A stretch of DNA of 64,000 nucleotides from a bacterium (GTDB lineage: Bacteria; Armatimonadota; JACIXR01): NCBI GenBank assembly GCA_014360495.1, contig JACIXR010000002.1:186001-250000 (forward strand), in the 5' to 3' direction. Positions 3,090 through 16,037 of this stretch are shown piece by piece. The position numbers and the translations under genes are program-made. How positions within the stretch are numbered: the stretch's first letter is position 1; each line of letters starts with the position of its first letter. Below the pieces are notes generated by a model, which did not search any database, had not been told where the DNA came from, and worked only from the letters and a program-made list of their open reading frames with translations.

Positions 3090-5942
3090 CTAACCTCCTA
3101 TCGTTATGCTTTCTCCATCTACTTGTTTGCCATTCAGGATGAATTTTCTCAGATTCCGGGGGAATTTGACTTCCGCGGTGCATCCCCTTGGAAGTTTTAT
3201 ATCAGCTATAAATGTATCATCGCTTACTTTATAGCTTACCTCTATTCTCCCCAGAGGCGTTGGAATCGTGCCCTTTACCCATTTCAAATCGCAGAGATTG
3301 GGTTCAATTAGAACTCTCGCGAAACCGGGCTCAATCAGCTTAACACCAAGGATATGGGTAGGGAGGAAGAAGGCAGGTGCTGCTGACCAGGCGTGGCAAT
3401 GGCTTCTCGTGAGCTTCTTACCAAGCCAATCTAAGGAGCCGGGGAATGTTTCCCAACAGGTAGTTGCGCCATAGTCGAGCATCAGCCCCCATTTCTCCCT
3501 GATTTCCTCAAGGATTTTCTCTATCTTCCCTATCTTAGCTAAAGCCTCAAAATAGAAGAAAGACATAAAGGGACTGCCAATTTTCACGAAATCTTCGGGT
3601 GGATTGAGGAGATATCCCTCAATTATTTTCCTTCTCTCTTCAGGAGCGCAGTCAGTTAGGAAAACGATGACTTGGGTTTGCAGGCTGAAGACGCTTGAGC
3701 GAGTTCCATCGCTATGAATGCTGTCAATATAAGCCTTCCGATTCTCATCCCAAAGATGCTCGTTTATCGCTTTCATCAAACTTTCGGAAAATTCAAGCAG
3801 AAACTTCTCATCCTCGTTTTCCCCCAAAATTTGTGCTATCCCAGCGGTCTCCCTCAAAGCTTTCACCAATAGGGCGTTTTGATGAGTAACAACCCCACTT
3901 GTCGGCGTGTCCATCGGCGCCCAATCAAGCATATTCCAAGCGAAAATATCAAGTAAGCCCTTATCGTTTATGAACTGCTTGAAATTCCTCGCGGTTTGAA
4001 TGAGATAGGGATAAATCTCCTCCAGGAAATCCCTCTCGCCGGTGAAAAGATAATATTCCTTACAGGCCAGCATCCAGAGTATTGTCCAAGCAGTGAGGAT
4101 GTTTTGCCATCCGCTGGGAACTTGGGATTCCGGGAGGGGAGAACGATAAAGGGATTTAGGAACCAACCTCAAACAGCGTTTGGATAAGGGGTAGGCACCA
4201 AATGTAGTGTAGTTTATTAGAGACTCGTTCCTCGCATCGCCCACCCAGAATGTCTGCTCGTAGGCAGGGCAGTCAACATAAGTATCCTCCATGCAAAGTC
4301 TCTCGGTATGCTTTGATATCTCCCATATTCTATTGAGCATATAGTCATTACTGTGGAAGGTCCCGACTTCCGCAACGGGATATGTGGCAAGGTAGGTTTT
4401 AATATTGTAAATCTTAACCGGAGACTTGTGATTTCTCACTGTAACCATCAGATATCTGAAGCCGCGCCTTATGAAGGAACGATAACTTTGATGCCCATCC
4501 CGACAAACATATCGCAGAGTATTGTGCAGTCCAGAGGTGTCCTCTATGAAGCCATCGTGAAGGCTTTCAAAGGCATAGAAATCCAATATCGTGCCCGCCG
4601 AAGCCTCCACCTCAAATTCAATAAAACCGCTGAGCTCAATCCCAAAATCAACAATCAGCTCAATATCGCCCTCGGATGGCTCAATCTGGGTGTAGGAATC
4701 GTTGGCATAAACGAGATTTTGATATTTAAGGGGAACATCCAATTCCCTCAATATCGTCTTCTGCGTTGAGAGGGTGTAGACAACATCCTTGCAGGTGTGC
4801 TCACGCAAAATCGGCTTCAGCCAATTCTGGAACTCGGAAAGGGAAGAGGCTTCCTTCATCTTCCAAACCTTCTCGTAATCTGGATGGGGCTTAAATTCGT
4901 CCTCCTGGGGATAGCCTATCTGAAGAAGAGTTCTCTGGGCAAAGGGTCCGATGGAAACGAACTCTCCCTCCCCTAAAGGTGATTGAAAGGAAACCTCCTC
5001 GGGGAAATCAAATGCTAAATTCACAAAGGGGTCATGGTAGGTGCCGCTTACATCCATTAGGAAGAAGTTATTTCCTTCCTCAAGCTCTACTTCCACCTGA
5101 TTAGTTCCCGTGAATTGGTATTCCTTTCCGTTCAATTTAAACCTACCCATTATCCCGAAGGGAATTATCATCCTTCCCCTCATTTTCTTTGGCGATTTTA
5201 TGACCGTTGCTATATAGCCGATATGCTGTTTCACATTTGCATCGTACTCTCCAGGGTAAAAATTCGGACGCAAATCTATGGATATATGAGACTTTACAGG
5301 CTTTACCTCTTTTAATGATATAACCCTCTTTGGGTAGATGGGCTCATTTGTGAGGAAGGGGATATCACGGGGTATTAACGATTTCCAGGGAGGTGTCCCA
5401 TAGGGACCGATTTCAATTGCGTTCTCCCAATCGCTATCGTCAAAGCAAAGCTCATTCCAACGAGGGTCAAATTCGTTGGCATCGTAAATCTCAGCCCAAG
5501 CTTGTTGACAGCTTATCCTCACCGAAGCTCTTCTAAAGCCGGTGTGTTCCTTGGTCTTCCAAGAGCTATCGCTAACTACACTCTCTATTATTTCCCCATC
5601 CTTTTGGAAGTCCAATTGAGCGATTAATCCACCTCTCCCTTCAATGTATTGAAATGTGCCTATCCCGTAGTGGGTGACTATAACGGAGACCACATTTTCC
5701 CCTGGCTTGAGCAAGTGCTTAATGGGATAGGTATCGTAGGACTGCTCAAAGGGCCAGGAGCGAACGGGTCCGAAGCCGATGAATTCCCCGTTTAAATAAA
5801 GGAAATAACGAGAATCGGCTGTTATATGCAGATGGGCTTCATCAAATTGCTCAGGCGTATTGAAAGTTTTGCGAAAAGCAAGCCAATAGTTTCTAGGGTG
5901 CTCTTCGCTGTGGCTCCAAATCCATTTCGCTTTCCATTGCAT
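3090..5942 (-). CDS. alpha-L-rhamnosidase, glycoside hydrolase family 78
   Basis: This 950-aa protein should release terminal alpha-L-rhamnose from glycans or glycosides by inversion. It begins with the jelly-roll segment usual in GH78 (KWIW ... FRKTF ... LYLNGEFIGFGPVR), followed by a second beta domain and an (alpha/alpha)6 barrel. The barrel carries DCPAYEQTFWVGDAR near residues 557-571: its D, E (+5) and D (+12) match the spacing of Asp567, Glu572 and Asp579 in Bacillus RhaB, and the Glu of CWETFPGS near residue 830 fits the catalytic base. No signal peptide is visible, so it is probably cytoplasmic. A strong site (AAGGAGGT) lies 9 bases before the ATG. It is divergent from gatC and leads the metallopeptidase-like gene. 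Confidence 0.88.
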   Translation of the reverse strand: MQWKAKWIWSHSEEHPRNYWLAFRKTFNTPEQFDEAHLHITADSRYFLYLNGEFIGFGPVRSWPFEQSYDTYPIKHLLKPGENVVSVIVTHYGIGTFQYIEGRGGLIAQLDFQKDGEIIESVVSDSSWKTKEHTGFRRASVRISCQQAWAEIYDANEFDPRWNELCFDDSDWENAIEIGPYGTPPWKSLIPRDIPFLTNEPIYPKRVISLKEVKPVKSHISIDLRPNFYPGEYDANVKQHIGYIATVIKSPKKMRGRMIIPFGIMGRFKLNGKEYQFTGTNQVEVELEEGNNFFLMDVSGTYHDPFVNLAFDFPEEVSFQSPLGEGEFVSIGPFAQRTLLQIGYPQEDEFKPHPDYEKVWKMKEASSLSEFQNWLKPILREHTCKDVVYTLSTQKTILRELDVPLKYQNLVYANDSYTQIEPSEGDIELIVDFGIELSGFIEFEVEASAGTILDFYAFESLHDGFIEDTSGLHNTLRYVCRDGHQSYRSFIRRGFRYLMVTVRNHKSPVKIYNIKTYLATYPVAEVGTFHSNDYMLNRIWEISKHTERLCMEDTYVDCPAYEQTFWVGDARNESLINYTTFGAYPLSKRCLRLVPKSLYRSPLPESQVPSGWQNILTAWTILWMLACKEYYLFTGERDFLEEIYPYLIQTARNFKQFINDKGLLDIFAWNMLDWAPMDTPTSGVVTHQNALLVKALRETAGIAQILGENEDEKFLLEFSESLMKAINEHLWDENRKAYIDSIHSDGTRSSVFSLQTQVIVFLTDCAPEERRKIIEGYLLNPPEDFVKIGSPFMSFFYFEALAKIGKIEKILEEIREKWGLMLDYGATTCWETFPGSLDWLGKKLTRSHCHAWSAAPAFFLPTHILGVKLIEPGFARVLIEPNLCDLKWVKGTIPTPLGRIEVSYKVSDDTFIADIKLPRGCTAEVKFPRNLRKFILNGKQVDGESITIGG

Positions 5943-11850: not shown

Positions 11851-12183
11851 TTAAAAGCGGTGAAACTGCTCCACGGGCACAACGAAAACAATTGCTCCTC
11901 CTACCCTGACCTTCATAGGAGTGGGGAAGGGGAAAGGTCCAACCTCGCTCAAGGGAAGGGGACGGGGATTGATGAACTGCTCCCTGCTCTTGCAATTCTT
12001 CTCTATCAAGCTAAGGACTGATTCCAATTCCTCGTCCTCCACTCCAATCAGAAGAGTGGTATTTCCTTCCCTTAGAAGCCCTCCTGTTGAAGCTACCTCC
12101 GTGAACCTATAGCCAGCGGCGAGAAGTTCTTGGCTTAAACGAGCCTTGTCCCTACTATGAACAACCGTTATTAGAAGCTTCAT
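11851..12183 (-). CDS. darA: cyclic-di-AMP receptor, PII-like (DarA/PstA)
   Basis: This ~110-aa protein of the DUF970/PII-like family binds c-di-AMP. Visible features are the first strand KLLITVVHSRD, the FTEVASTGGLLREGNTTLLIGVEDEEL block with the conserved GGxLxxGNxTLLIG, and a C-terminal GAIVFVVPVEQFHRF (usually GGAxxFVxxxxxFxxF). ATG at 12183 is preferred over the GTG just before it because AAGGAGGTG lies at the right distance. The gene overlaps the end of tmk by about 29 bases, implying translational coupling. As a small ligand-binding trimer it would report c-di-AMP levels; its output partner is unknown in this family. Confidence 0.9.
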   Translation of the reverse strand: MKLLITVVHSRDKARLSQELLAAGYRFTEVASTGGLLREGNTTLLIGVEDEELESVLSLIEKNCKSREQFINPRPLPLSEVGPFPFPTPMKVRVGGAIVFVVPVEQFHRF

Positions 12184-12820
12184 CACACCACCTCCTTATG
12201 AGTTCCTTCACTATTTCCTCTATTCTCTCTTGCACCTCCTCAACTCCTCCCCTGCCATCTACTACCTTTATTTCCTCTGGATAGCGCGAGGCGAGCTCAA
12301 GATATCCTTCCCTAACCCTTTTATGGAATTCCATCGGCTCTCCCTCAAAGGGAGTGAGGGTGGAAAGACGCTTCATCCCCTCTTCAGGTGGTATATCTAT
12401 GTAAATAGTTAGGTGGGGAGATATACCTTGTCGGGCGAAAGCATCCATCTCCTCTAAGAGTGGGAGGTCTAACCCTCTGCCAAATCCTTGATAGGCGAGG
12501 GAAGAAAGGGAGAAGCGGTCGGAGATGACTATCTTTCCTTCCATTAAAGCGGGCTTAATCACTTCCTCAATATGTTGGGCGCGAGCGGCGAGGAAGAGGA
12601 AGAGCTCCGCTCTTGGATTGATGGGACGAAGAGCGGGGTCCAAAAGGAGCTGCCTTATCCTCTCTCCCAAGGACGTTCCGCCCGGTTCCCTTGTTAGGAC
12701 GGCGGGAAATCGTTGGGAAAGGGAGCGATAAAGGAGCTCAGCTTGGGTGGATTTGCCCGCTCCTTCTCCTCCCTCAATAACGATAAACAAACCTTTTAGA
12801 GAAACATCCATTTTGCTCAT
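12155..12820 (-). CDS. tmk: thymidylate kinase
   Basis: This 221-aa dTMP kinase makes dTDP from dTMP and ATP. Motifs: P-loop EGGEGAGKSTQAELL (residues 16-30), TREPGGTSLGERIR with the DR(E/X)P-like loop, and the DRFSLSSLAYQGFGRGLD motif near residue 98, followed by a LID region rich in Arg and Glu. The length is normal. It heads the minus-strand run tmk-darA-x-holB, a replication-linked order also found in Firmicutes. No good ribosome binding site is seen before the ATG, which may mean a very short leader. Confidence 0.93.
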   Translation of the reverse strand: MSKMDVSLKGLFIVIEGGEGAGKSTQAELLYRSLSQRFPAVLTREPGGTSLGERIRQLLLDPALRPINPRAELFLFLAARAQHIEEVIKPALMEGKIVISDRFSLSSLAYQGFGRGLDLPLLEEMDAFARQGISPHLTIYIDIPPEEGMKRLSTLTPFEGEPMEFHKRVREGYLELASRYPEEIKVVDGRGGVEEVQERIEEIVKELIRRWCDEASNNGCS

Positions 12821-13023: not shown

Positions 13024-13268
13024 AGCCTTTTATACTTCTCGCTATTGTGGAAGCCGTAGGAGCTTTTATCCCTATCCGTTGCAAAACATATTCAATTCCT
13101 CCTTTAAAGGAATTTGACCTAAACAAGAGCATTCTTTTCTACCCTTTAGATATTGTATCACTCTTTTAACTCAGTTCCTTTTTCCTGAATTTTTATCTCT
13201 TCTTGAGAATCGTGTTTCTTGAAACGCCAAAAGCTTCCTTTGCCGATTCCACTCCTATATTGCAATTT
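13024..13268 (-). pseudogene. remnant of a transposase N-terminal helix-turn-helix region
   Basis: The gap between tmk and the decayed Fe-S-loop gene has no intact gene. On the minus strand at about 13194-13268 it encodes GVESAKEAFGVSRNTILKKR, the first helix-turn-helix typical of IS481/IS3-like transposases, ended by a stop. At about 13024-13112 it encodes VLQRIGIKAPTASTIARSIK, like the second helix-turn-helix of the same proteins, again between stops. The DDE catalytic part is absent. This is a family-pattern judgement from short fragments. The rest of the gap (12821-13020) shows nothing I can name. Confidence 0.4.
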
Positions 13269-13277
13269 AGACCATGA

Positions 13278-13958
13278 TTATCTCATAATCTGATATGCTG
13301 TCCATTTTATATAGCGTTTGCAAAACTCCCGAACTGGACAAATCCTACAATCGGGCTCAAGGTCTTTGCAATAACCGTCTTCGTAAAGATAAAATGCTCC
13401 GTTGTCAACATAGAATGGAATCACTCCAGCTTGGCTAACGATTTGCTCAATGATGGGGCGCATTTTGCTTGCATGGATTATAAATGGTCTATCCTTTTCA
13501 TATAAAACTTCACCAAGTAGACCTGTTCGGCAAAAAACCTTGCCCACATGTCCGTCTACTATCATTAATGAAGTTTTGAATTAAATCAAAGAATTTAAGG
13601 TTTTCTTCTTTAAGCCAGCGAATGAACCCTTCATATGCCTTGAAGCGATAAGCGAATAAAGAGAGTGGCTTTATGCCGCCTAACGCTCCAACCTTATAAA
13701 CTAACGACCCTTTTGCTCCACCAATTTCTTTGAATATTGAAAATAGCTTCCCTTCCGAAATATTAAACGGCTCGTAAAAAAGTTTCCCCCAAATTCATTA
13801 TATAGTGATGCAGATAATTCTTTTACTTTTTCCACCCTTGCTTGCTGATTGAGCAAGATTCTGAGAAGAAGATAACTTAATATTTCTTCCTGTGTTTCCC
13901 TTTTATTTATAGATTCTGATAAGGAAGAGCCATATGTTCCCGCCACCTTTTCAGCCAT
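13278..13958 (-). pseudogene. broken gene for a protein with an endonuclease III-like [4Fe-4S] loop motif
   Basis: Three consecutive frames join into one plausible protein. 13958 to about 13785 gives MAEKVAGTYGSSLSES and QEEILSYLLLRILLNQQARV. About 13780 to 13566 gives FYEPFNISEGKLFSIFKEIG, SLVYKVGALGGIKPLSLFAY and KAYEGFIRWLKEENLKFFDL. 13565 to 13278 gives HVGKVFCRTGLLGEV and ends CKDLEPDCRICPVREFC. The last motif is exactly C-x6-C-x2-C-x5-C, the cluster-binding loop of endonuclease III/MutY. The first shift lies at an A/C homopolymer (about 13775-13787), the second near 13570. The helix-hairpin-helix of a glycosylase is not evident, so the family is uncertain. It is placed directly after the methyltransferase remnant, probably as its former partner. 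Confidence 0.6.
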
Positions 13959-13976
13959 TTTACCCTGCCTTCCTTT

Positions 13977-14677
13977 TCAAATTCTTTCAATCGTTAAGTG
14001 GCGTGCATCCTCCCGCACAATTATCTCCGCTTCGTAATCTACCCCAAAGAGCAAATCCTCGCTCAAACCCATCTTCGCCTTTACGACCTCCAAAAGCTCT
14101 AAATCTATTTCATATCCCACGCTATTTCTACCAAGCTTGGCGGATACTCTATTCGTCGTGCCAGAACCCATAAAGGGGTCCAAAACGGTCTCGCCCACAT
14201 AAGAGAACAGCTTTATTAACCTATAAGGAATTTCTTCGGGAAAAGCAGCTATGCCCTCTTCCAATCTGTTTTTAATTGGCAAGACATTCGTTATTTTCCA
14301 AATCGTTAAATACCACTTGTTCTTTTGATATTCATCATGTATCCCTCAGGCTTTGTCCAGATGATTTTGTCCCTGTAATTTAAACCTTCTTCAAGGTAAA
14401 TCCTCGTCAAATCGGCAACAACAGGATATTTCCTCCCATTTATCAAGGTATCATCGCATACTATGCAAGCAATTCTTCCTTCCTGCAAAACCCTCCTTAT
14501 CTCCCTCGCTACCCTCCTCATCTTCTCAAGATATGCCTCATAGCTCTCAAACAAATCCGGATAATCAAAAGGAGCATTGAAGTAAGGAGGAGAGGTTATA
14601 ACAAGCTGGACGCTGCAATCTTCCAGCTCCCTCATATCCTCCGCATCACCGAATATCAGCTTATGATGCGTTTTCAT
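13977..14677 (-). pseudogene. DNA methyltransferase (beta-class N4-C/N6-A) with frameshift and internal deletion
   Basis: The N-terminal piece (ATG at 14677, stop near 14306) has LIFGDAEDMRELEDCSVQLV and the catalytic TSPPYFNAP motif. The C-terminal piece (to 13977) has NVLPIKNRLEEGIAAFPEE and the AdoMet motif DPFMGSGTT. Motif IV before motif I marks the beta class. The two pieces lie in different frames: after KPEGYMMNIKRTSG the stop is avoided by shifting one base, giving WYLTIWKITNVLP. Intact relatives have roughly 40-60 residues between the RxSG and WYLT blocks, and these are missing here. A deletion as well as a frameshift is therefore likely, and the enzyme should be inactive. The start overlaps the end of the upstream FHA gene region. 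Confidence 0.75.
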
Positions 14678-14681
14678 ATCC

Positions 14682-16037
14682 TTATATTTCAAACCTCAAT
14701 TTGCTCTCTCCAACTTGTATTATATCCCCATTTTTCAGTTTTTCCCTCGCCACCCTCATCCCGCTCACAAATGTCCCATTAGTTGAACCCTCATCCAATA
14801 TATAATAACCATCATCCTCTAAAACTATCTTGCAATGCCTCCGAGAAACAGCCTTATCCAATATAGTGAGGTCCCTATCCTCAGCTCTCCCAATTGTGAA
14901 TTCTTCTTTCATTATTGGGAAAACTTCGCCTTCCAATGGTCCCTTAACCACCACGAGCCGCGCACCAGATGAAAGAGGCTTTGCCTCCTGCTTTGATGGA
15001 AGGACGGCTGTTTGTCCCGCTTTCAAAGCCGATGGCTGAGTAGCTGGTGTGCAGGCACAAGCGCCAGTGATTGGGTCCTTCCTCTGACCACAATAAGGAC
15101 ATACATCGCTGGATACCGGCGAGACCTTTTGCTCCACCACCACATCTCTCCTCTGCACTTTTTCCTTCATCTGGAAAAGAAGGGAATGTCCTCCTATCTG
15201 CAATCTGTCCCCATCTTGCAAGGTTGCTGAGGAAATCCTCTGTCCATTCAATATAACTCCACCGCCCAAATCCCTAATCTCATATGTATTATCCTTGCGA
15301 GTTATCAATGCATGTTTCGGAAGGACCGATTTGTCCCCAAAAAGTCCTAAATCGCAGAGCTCGTCCCTGCCGATATAGAATTCATCTTTATCAACTATAT
15401 ATTCCCTTCCCTCCTTGCTTCCCGATAGCACTTTGAGCCAAGCTTTTTTAGTTAGTTCCTCCACAAGTGATGTGGAAAAGCCGACCAATCCTCCAATAGA
15501 AGTAAGCGCTACCATTCGGCTAACCGCGTCTGTATAAAAGATGAAAGGCAGAAAGTCAAAGAGCATACCGCCGATGAAACCACCGAAAGCACCTCCAAGC
15601 GCTCCTCTTTTCGCCCTCCATTTGGAGAGAGTCAAAATCCCTTGTGATGCCCCAACAACCATCCCCACCGCCGACCATCCTAGGCTTCTTGCCACTATCC
15701 CCTTCAGGGCTTGAAAAAGGGAAGCCATCCCCTCCCCTGGGACGAACATTTGGTAGATTCTTTCTCCAATCACCAAGGCGCAGGCGCCACCGAGCAAACC
15801 AGTTAATGAACCGATCACAGTGAAGCCCAAGAGCCTTTGCTTCCGCCAAATCGCCTCCGTTAATCCCAACGAACCACCGATGAAAAAACCCATAACCGCT
15901 CCAAATATCGCATCATTCCTGTAAACTTCTATCAGAGTCTTCTCCCTCATATGGGTGAGGGGCAAGGGTTCAAGGATAATCCAACCTATGAAGCCACCAA
16001 TCGCCCCGAAAAGGAGGAATAAAAATGTCTTCTTCAT
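14682..16037 (-). CDS. multi-pass membrane protein with zinc ribbon and two FHA domains
   Basis: This 451-aa protein has about five hydrophobic helices in residues 1-190, several Gly-rich (GAIGGFIGWIILEP, GAVMGFFIGGSLG). A first FHA-like domain follows (about 205-285; YIGRDELCDLGL, LPKHALI), then a zinc ribbon CPYCGQRKDPITGACAC near residue 317. A canonical C-terminal FHA domain comes last (about 360-451; GRAEDRDL, SRRHCKIV, DEGSTNGTFV). FHA domains bind phosphothreonine, so this is probably a membrane-bound reader of Ser/Thr kinase signalling; no kinase is in the window. The start overlaps the stop of the next FHA gene by 4 bases (ATGA), so they are translationally coupled. Its FHA end shares 138 identical bases with that neighbour. 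Confidence 0.82.
   Translation of the reverse strand: MKKTFLFLLFGAIGGFIGWIILEPLPLTHMREKTLIEVYRNDAIFGAVMGFFIGGSLGLTEAIWRKQRLLGFTVIGSLTGLLGGACALVIGERIYQMFVPGEGMASLFQALKGIVARSLGWSAVGMVVGASQGILTLSKWRAKRGALGGAFGGFIGGMLFDFLPFIFYTDAVSRMVALTSIGGLVGFSTSLVEELTKKAWLKVLSGSKEGREYIVDKDEFYIGRDELCDLGLFGDKSVLPKHALITRKDNTYEIRDLGGGVILNGQRISSATLQDGDRLQIGGHSLLFQMKEKVQRRDVVVEQKVSPVSSDVCPYCGQRKDPITGACACTPATQPSALKAGQTAVLPSKQEAKPLSSGARLVVVKGPLEGEVFPIMKEEFTIGRAEDRDLTILDKAVSRRHCKIVLEDDGYYILDEGSTNGTFVSGMRVAREKLKNGDIIQVGESKLRFEI
14715..14852 (-). repeat. 138-bp exact repeat, copy 1 (FHA coding)
   Basis: These 138 bases are identical to 16067-16204 and encode the last conserved part of the FHA domain in the 451-aa protein. 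Sequence on both sides differs at synonymous and other sites, so the identity is limited to this block, suggesting recent gene conversion or duplication. Confidence 0.9.

Follow-up and report, generated by a model that had tools for sequence, protein, structure and literature searches.

Decayed remains of a methyltransferase and an endonuclease III-like Fe-S protein in an Armatimonadota genome: a probable restriction-modification cassette with a putative restriction glycosylase

The stretch of DNA analyzed here (64,000 nucleotides, hereafter the window) probably contains what is left of a mobile, now dead cassette for Type II-like restriction-modification (R-M), whose restriction enzyme would have been an endonuclease III-type HhH-GPD 4Fe-4S protein (hereafter the HhH protein), likely a restriction glycosylase blocked by m4C and perhaps acting at GGCC. 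Genome comparisons establish, at the level of sequence, the pairing of the HhH gene with a DNA methyltransferase (MTase), the presence of close copies at unrelated places in bacteria and archaea, the occupation of one slot by either the HhH gene or a restriction enzyme (REase) gene, and purifying selection on the HhH gene.

The decayed pair and its relatives

The decayed Fe-S gene covers window positions 13278-13990 on the minus strand, directly 3' of a broken MTase gene, and ends in the loop CKDLEPDCRICPVREFC (C-x6-C-x2-C-x5-C). This ending had been recognized in an earlier note on the same DNA and was confirmed with an intact relative in G001, a genome of the window's genus, whose protein matched the window pieces in order (tblastn E-values of 3e-47, 9e-26, and 3e-7, computed for a set of 21 sequences). 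The N-terminal piece (13922..13990, minus strand, KWLKRWREHM) was matched by residues 22-40 of the G001 HhH protein and 18-40 of its G026 counterpart, the second piece (13701..13958, minus strand, LLNQQARVEKVKEL) by residues 38-114, the third, in another frame (13555..13785, minus strand, VGALGGIKPLSLFAYRFKAYEGFIRWL), by residues 90-165 with 61% identity (E 9e-26), and the C-terminal piece (13278..13580, minus strand), which carries the catalytic Asp motif VDGHVGKVFCR and the Fe-S loop, by residues 214-310 with 73% identity (E 3e-47). DNA alignment with G001 revealed frameshifts in the gene as well as two deletions upstream of VDGHV (39 and 128 bp), of which the longer removed the presumed hairpin together with the candidate catalytic Lys, while 25 + 71 bp are missing at the MTase/HhH junction. 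Because of these missing segments, the repaired reading of about 225 residues put forward in the earlier note, which correctly spanned several frames, is not the ancestral protein; the latter had about 313 aa. The gene in the window begins further upstream than in the note, near 13990 and in another frame.

The note had also placed the gene straight after a beta-class DNA MTase, and the two do adjoin, except that the MTase is a pseudogene as well. Its 5' fragment (14306..14692, minus strand), of the beta-class N4/N6 amino-MTase type with TSPPY, matched PF01555 (E 1e-15) and is 70% identical to residues 5-127 of the intact G001 MTase; its 3' fragment, in another frame (13977..14333, minus strand, DPFMGSGTT), matched PF01555 at E 2.6e-18 and is 76% identical to residues 173-288, with 157 bp gone between the two fragments in the DNA alignment with G001. 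Along the minus strand, an intact FHA-domain gene (14682-16037) lies upstream of the pair and a thymidylate kinase gene (tmk; 12155-12820) downstream. Since several deletions affect two genes beside an intact neighbor, the decay is regarded as true, and sequencing error as the source of the frameshifts was rejected; with multiple frameshifts and deletions, the window copy is not expected to yield either enzyme. No second HhH copy was found in the window's own genome, where, apart from this gene, PF00730 matched just one protein, an ordinary one of the Nth type. A clean empty site was not obtained for the window: the stretches surrounding tmk in G001 and G002 contain no cassette, but they differ in the far flank. 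Downstream of the pair (13170-13270, minus strand), the short reading NIGVESAKEAFGVSRNTILKKR resembles, by eye, what is left of the helix-turn-helix of a transposase or regulator.

Intact relatives, found in bacterial and archaeal MAGs, consist of a PF01555 MTase of about 303-310 aa, the end of which overlaps the gene of an HhH protein of about 313 aa. Such overlapping pairs with both genes open occur at five loci (G001:C2, G026, G062, G065, and G066), so that the intact MTase and Fe-S-loop pairs that the earlier note wished to see do exist, and its view that the ancestral pair combined a modification enzyme with an Fe-S protein is largely supported by them and by the modeled endonuclease III-like fold. 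The HhH gene was present in 4 of 60 relatives of the window's genome, in 6 of 291 genomes of its phylum (the window's own included), and at 14 loci retrieved from one scan of 84,980 species genomes, which used two short conserved patterns that distant relatives would escape. Record titles of the loci name Zixiibacteriota, Thermodesulfobacteriota, Euryarchaeota, Thermoplasmata, Alkanophagales, Archaeoglobales, WOR-3, Methanophagales, Armatimonadetes, and other bacteria. Best-segment identity to the G001 protein is 69-82% in 10 of the 13 loci besides G001's own, and 45%, 47%, and 94% (over 18 residues) in the others. Among 13 loci compared, no neighbor genes are common except in L021 and L027, which represent two sister species with the same insertion, and at L129 a gene read by eye as archaeal eIF5A adjoins an MTase 80% identical to that of G001. 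The differing flanks together with the cross-domain copies indicate that the two genes crossed domains together, as a mobile cassette exchanged between archaea and bacteria. The loci of G954 (L171) and G064 (L020) are 96-98% identical in DNA, though reached via an archaeal and a bacterial phylum, so one bin is probably misassigned and the two are treated as one insertion; L020 has one in-frame stop per gene, which could be a sequencing error. In L022, the tail of the HhH frame differs just past the last Cys.

The state of both genes was recorded for 21 HhH loci in 20 genomes. Besides the five loci with both genes open, five have an open MTase with a broken HhH gene (G039, G069, G071, G391, and G954), three have both broken (the window, G002, and G064), none combines a broken MTase with an open HhH gene, and eight were left unclassed. 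The MTase is present in three of the unclassed loci (G063, where it is cut by the contig edge; G068, with only its last residues in view; and G070, split over two contigs, with an intact MTase and HhH residues 1-117 at one edge and a broken HhH gene covering residues 72-313 on the other), G067 and G107 end at a contig edge, and G001:C31, G059, and G072 hold HhH fragments without the clade MTase. The clade MTase or part of it lies beside the HhH gene at 16 of the 19 loci with upstream DNA in view, and homologues without the clade MTase are confined, among these loci, to the three fragments; the earlier note had named homologues unlinked to MTases as evidence against its idea. The direction of loss fits restriction, with the effector lost first, in numbers that are too small for proof (5/5 vs. 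5/8, not significant). For the HhH gene, dN/dS values were 0.087, 0.123, and 0.089 in the 3 of 21 pairs with unsaturated dS, and the intact copies are therefore under purifying selection.

Three individual loci deserve description. In G059:C38 (L014, 3224-3706 and 3713-4777, plus strand), a fragment covering the HhH C-terminus (70% identity to the G026 protein) is located a few bases 5' of a different, more distant MTase, and not 3' of the clade MTase. In G001:C31 (L016, about 5581-5742), a second, almost erased HhH tail lies between relatives of the genes flanking the decayed pair of G002, and reads as an insertion and loss at the same place. At L018 (1979-3739, plus strand), a 587 aa gene directly 5' of an intact pair has a weak PADLOC match to Type IV methyl-directed restriction (E 0.0015, 15 bits), and its surroundings are possibly a defence island.

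Family and fold of the HhH protein

No Pfam or PADLOC family matched the HhH protein above its cut-off. Searching with the repaired translation, as the earlier note had advised, gave 13.5 bits for Pfam HhH-GPD (cut-off 26.2) and a weak match to NCBIfam mutY (E 0.007), while the intact proteins were unmatched by HhH-GPD and scored at best 12.8 bits for the Pfam EndoIII Fe-S motif (cut-off 20.5). HHalign comparison with 11 ordinary Nth-type proteins, gathered with a loosened sequence pattern, resulted in a probability of 97.3 (E 2.6e-11, 77 columns) and lined up VDGHV with the VDTHV of the Nth-type proteins as well as all four Cys; homology to Nth/MutY across the C-terminal part is clear in this alignment. 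The HhH family profile matched 17 of 392 genomes, 12 of them solely at E-values of 8e-5 to 9e-4 and along the same C-terminal stretch (frames of 207-421 aa), and 10 of these 12 are among the 11 Nth-type proteins.

Structure prediction for the intact protein pointed in the same direction. The AlphaFold model (mean pLDDT 76.9, pTM 0.77, from a shallow alignment with Neff 1.7) contains no strand of at least 3 residues and could be superposed over residues 9-306 on E. coli endonuclease III (2abk; rmsd 3.8, 210 residues aligned) with a Z of 11.8, a value near 12 that can also reflect a common arrangement in helical proteins. The 50 structure matches listed comprised 45 DNA glycosylases or endonuclease III structures, 4 queuine salvage proteins (DUF2419, Z about 11), and 1 hypothetical protein. 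In a separate Foldseek search, the best E-value was weak (0.021). The model is thus suggestive of an endonuclease III-like, all-helical fold (Z about 12), and the motif evidence weighs the same as the model in placing the HhH protein near endonuclease III/MutY (HhH-GPD, 4Fe-4S). Judged by profile and fold, the loop is not that of a known non-DNA enzyme, a possibility raised at the outset.

Both D221, the Asp of VDxHV, and K189 are invariant (11 of 11 alignment rows each), and the Fe-S Cys are kept in the rows reaching that far. K189 opens model helix 189-205, which follows the presumed hairpin, but does not fall in the Nth lysine column of the HHalign alignment; the hairpin itself is unusual (GWVGNDPKACRM), and the K-D spacing is 32 residues. 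An invariant Lys at the helix start after the presumed hairpin, together with D221, suggests a bifunctional glycosylase/lyase. With endonuclease III, MutY, and Mig the HhH protein shares the modeled fold, the VDxHV Asp, and the exact Cys spacing. It departs from them in its length, some 90 residues above the 224 aa of the Nth-type protein encoded in the same genome, and in its unusual hairpin, its linkage to an MTase, its spread across domains, and its being missed by Pfam.

The slot downstream of the methyltransferase

The MTase combines TSPPY and DPFMGSGTT in beta-class order (PF01555, N6_N4_Mtase), matched PADLOC MTase_II PDLC03353 (E 1e-75), and is probably of the N4-cytosine type, i.e., it would produce m4C. 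Other MTases of the window's phylum scored at most 182 bits with the MTase profile, compared to more than 500 bits for complete members of the clade. In order to follow the partners, this profile was used, regardless of partner, in 291 + 392 + 389 genomes; as it was built from HhH-paired MTases, the census favors finding those. It recovered 18 clade MTases, of which eight are accompanied, on the 3' side or alongside, by the HhH gene or its remains (G000, G001, G002, G026, G039, G069, G391, and G954), eight by a PDLC03572 Type II REase (G202, G163, G457, G079, G911, G743, G760, and G705), one by a PDLC03542 REase as convergent neighbor (G217), one by no recognized partner (G318, where the MTase itself is broken), and none by both. 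Six of the eight PDLC03572 REases were confirmed with PADLOC (E 8.6e-97 to 9.9e-101), and the other two, detected with tblastn, are broken (G202 in pieces, G079 with one in-frame stop). The REase of L124 starts 2 bp past the MTase stop. In the REase-paired loci L123 and L127, a broken REase gene accompanies an open MTase gene, and loss has the direction seen in the HhH pairs.

Queries for REases of either kind (tblastn) found none in 21 HhH-bearing sequences (one locus tested twice), an HhH search in 16 REase or virus loci gave only three chance-level matches (E 1.8-8.7), and neither PADLOC nor Pfam recognized the HhH companion as an REase. In none of the 18 clade MTases of the census does the slot hold both the HhH gene and an REase gene; the HhH protein would therefore take the place of the restriction enzyme, and this replacement is the strongest argument for a role in restriction. 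The unusual restriction design suggested in the earlier note is upheld insofar as recognized REases fill the same slot in sister systems, restriction itself being what we infer. In a tree of 25 MTases, which came with long-branch warnings, the HhH-paired members fall into two groups in the best tree but are united in 54% of bootstraps, which is compatible with either one or two origins of the swap.

The nearest relatives in the phage collection are the 'N4-cytosine methylases' of the Sulfolobus viruses STSV1 and STSV2 (61-63% identity), in which the MTase adjoins a sugar epimerase gene and neither the HhH gene nor a PDLC03572 REase was seen. The clade MTase was present in four further viral contigs, one with a PDLC03572 Type II REase (L109, 3980-5855, plus strand) and one with a distant PDLC03542 relative. 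No HhH relative was found in plasmid and phage records at E 1e-5, nor in viral contigs in two scans.

The sister systems also bear on the recognition site. One of 14 control genomes, that of S. acidocaldarius, has a PDLC03572 match; SuaI (GG-m4C-C) is called the sole R-M system of this species in the available text of PMC5809426, and an M/R pair with GGCC m4C is listed for it in that of PMC10609329. On that ground, PDLC03572 would be SuaI itself. The block GYIRISRRSGV.LQHPYPMYFYPDN recurs with few substitutions in clade MTases of all three kinds (HhH-paired, REase-paired, and viral), and four outgroups have a different sequence there. The shared block and the PDLC03572 match in the SuaI species make GGCC a reasonable prediction for the site of the cassette. 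The HhH-paired MTases are 51-71% (mean 62%) identical to the PDLC03572-paired ones, compared to 35% to four outgroup MTases, and gene order is the same, whereas the restriction gene of the cassette is an unrelated HhH-GPD-like Fe-S protein. Composition was measured on samples of 60-204 kb: GGCC had observed/expected ratios of 0.25, 0.17, 0.59, and 0.03 in four genomes with intact cassettes (ranks 5, 3, 3, and 2 of 16 palindromes), 0.12 and 0.17 in two with decayed cassettes, and 0.91 and 0.06 in two without a match. GGCC avoidance did not discriminate in these samples, and other tetramers were equally depleted. Many palindromic tetramers (GATC, GTAC, ACGT, CTAG, TCGA, and GGCC) are strongly depleted in the samples of G000, G001, G002, and G026, which hints at heavy restriction pressure in these lineages.

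Slot exclusivity also weighs on the main alternative, in which a solitary MTase travels with the HhH protein as its repair companion, the latter fixing deaminated or wrongly alkylated bases left by the MTase. Pairs of MTase and repair enzyme exist (Dcm-Vsr and Mig.MthI, the latter a Methanothermobacter T/G glycosylase), and a glycosylase for MTase by-products could likewise travel with its MTase; the modeled fold is that of repair glycosylases, T/G glycosylase 1kea included (Z 9.7). Amino-MTases yield no m5C, hence no T/G mismatch is expected, and the partner here is an amino-MTase (PF01555, TSPPY) and not an m5C MTase. A crenarchaeal HhH-GPD protein that mends alkylated DNA is described in the available text of PMC11754123. 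Against such a role, the HhH gene replaces the REase gene (both in 0 of 18 clade MTases), and its frequent decay is easier to reconcile with a costly gene than with a protective one. We consider a repair companion unlikely, because amino-MTases make no m5C and the HhH gene excludes the REase.

Proposed mechanism and its meaning

In the preferred reading, that of a restriction glycosylase, the MTase would mark the host's sites and the HhH protein would bind the same short site when unmodified and flip out a base, which would be removed via Asp221; Lys189 could then open the abasic site, or heat and AP endonucleases could do so, producing breaks in invading DNA, and methylation would block the HhH protein. 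The chemistry of Nth-type enzymes is known and serves as a model for both base excision and the lyase step, and excision followed by lyase or heat breakage is proposed by analogy with it and with R.PabI. The latter removes adenine at unmethylated GTAC and is also an AP lyase, according to the available portions of PMC4357717 and PMC10273834. R.PabI (HALFPIPE) resembles the cassette in being MTase-paired, mobile, and present in a hyperthermophile, with methylation-blocked excision demonstrated for PabI and proposed here (PMC10273834, PMC4357717, and PMC4615327, as far as their available text goes), and differs in being a beta-sheet half-pipe that acts at GTAC with m6A, while the HhH model is all helix and its sequence has an Fe-S loop. 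Brig1 is likewise a DNA glycosylase serving antiphage defence, but it belongs to the uracil-DNA-glycosylase superfamily and targets alpha-glucosyl-hmC of T-even phages, and the available text of PMC11078745 mentions no methyltransferase.

It is quite improbable that the HhH protein is a restriction subunit devoid of glycosylase chemistry, that is, a site-specific binder or a nuclease: the length of 313 aa, the unusual presumed hairpin, and the K-D spacing of 32 would suit it, and the catalytic assignment comes from motifs only, but the invariant D221 aligns with the glycosylase Asp and the Fe-S Cys are retained in the alignment rows reaching that far. A chance neighborhood of an MTase and a divergent glycosylase, for which the few homologues, nearly all named ones being MAGs, might speak, is hardly credible and already disfavored by the order, overlap, and partner that stay constant in different contexts, with flanks common to only two sister species of 13 loci.

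By genomic evidence, the cassette with its putative restriction glycosylase would be a new variant of restriction-modification. No HhH-GPD restriction enzyme was present among the literature matches listed, mostly open-access, nor in the available portions of PMC10273834, PMC4357717, PMC10609329, and PMC12707154, and the HhH effector escapes the PADLOC and Pfam models used here. On balance, we lean towards a second independent origin of base-excision restriction, in which a sequence-specific, endonuclease III-type Fe-S HhH-GPD glycosylase/AP lyase replaced the REase beside one MTase lineage (probably GGCC m4C) that moved between archaea and bacteria, with archaeal viruses carrying the MTase as an antidote. 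If true, one MTase lineage with three unrelated effectors would constitute a natural swap experiment, and the enzyme could perhaps become a thermostable, metal-independent tool. A DNA-repair fold would then have been turned into a sequence-specific restriction enzyme, and the replacement of nucleases by glycosylases in restriction would have taken place at least twice.
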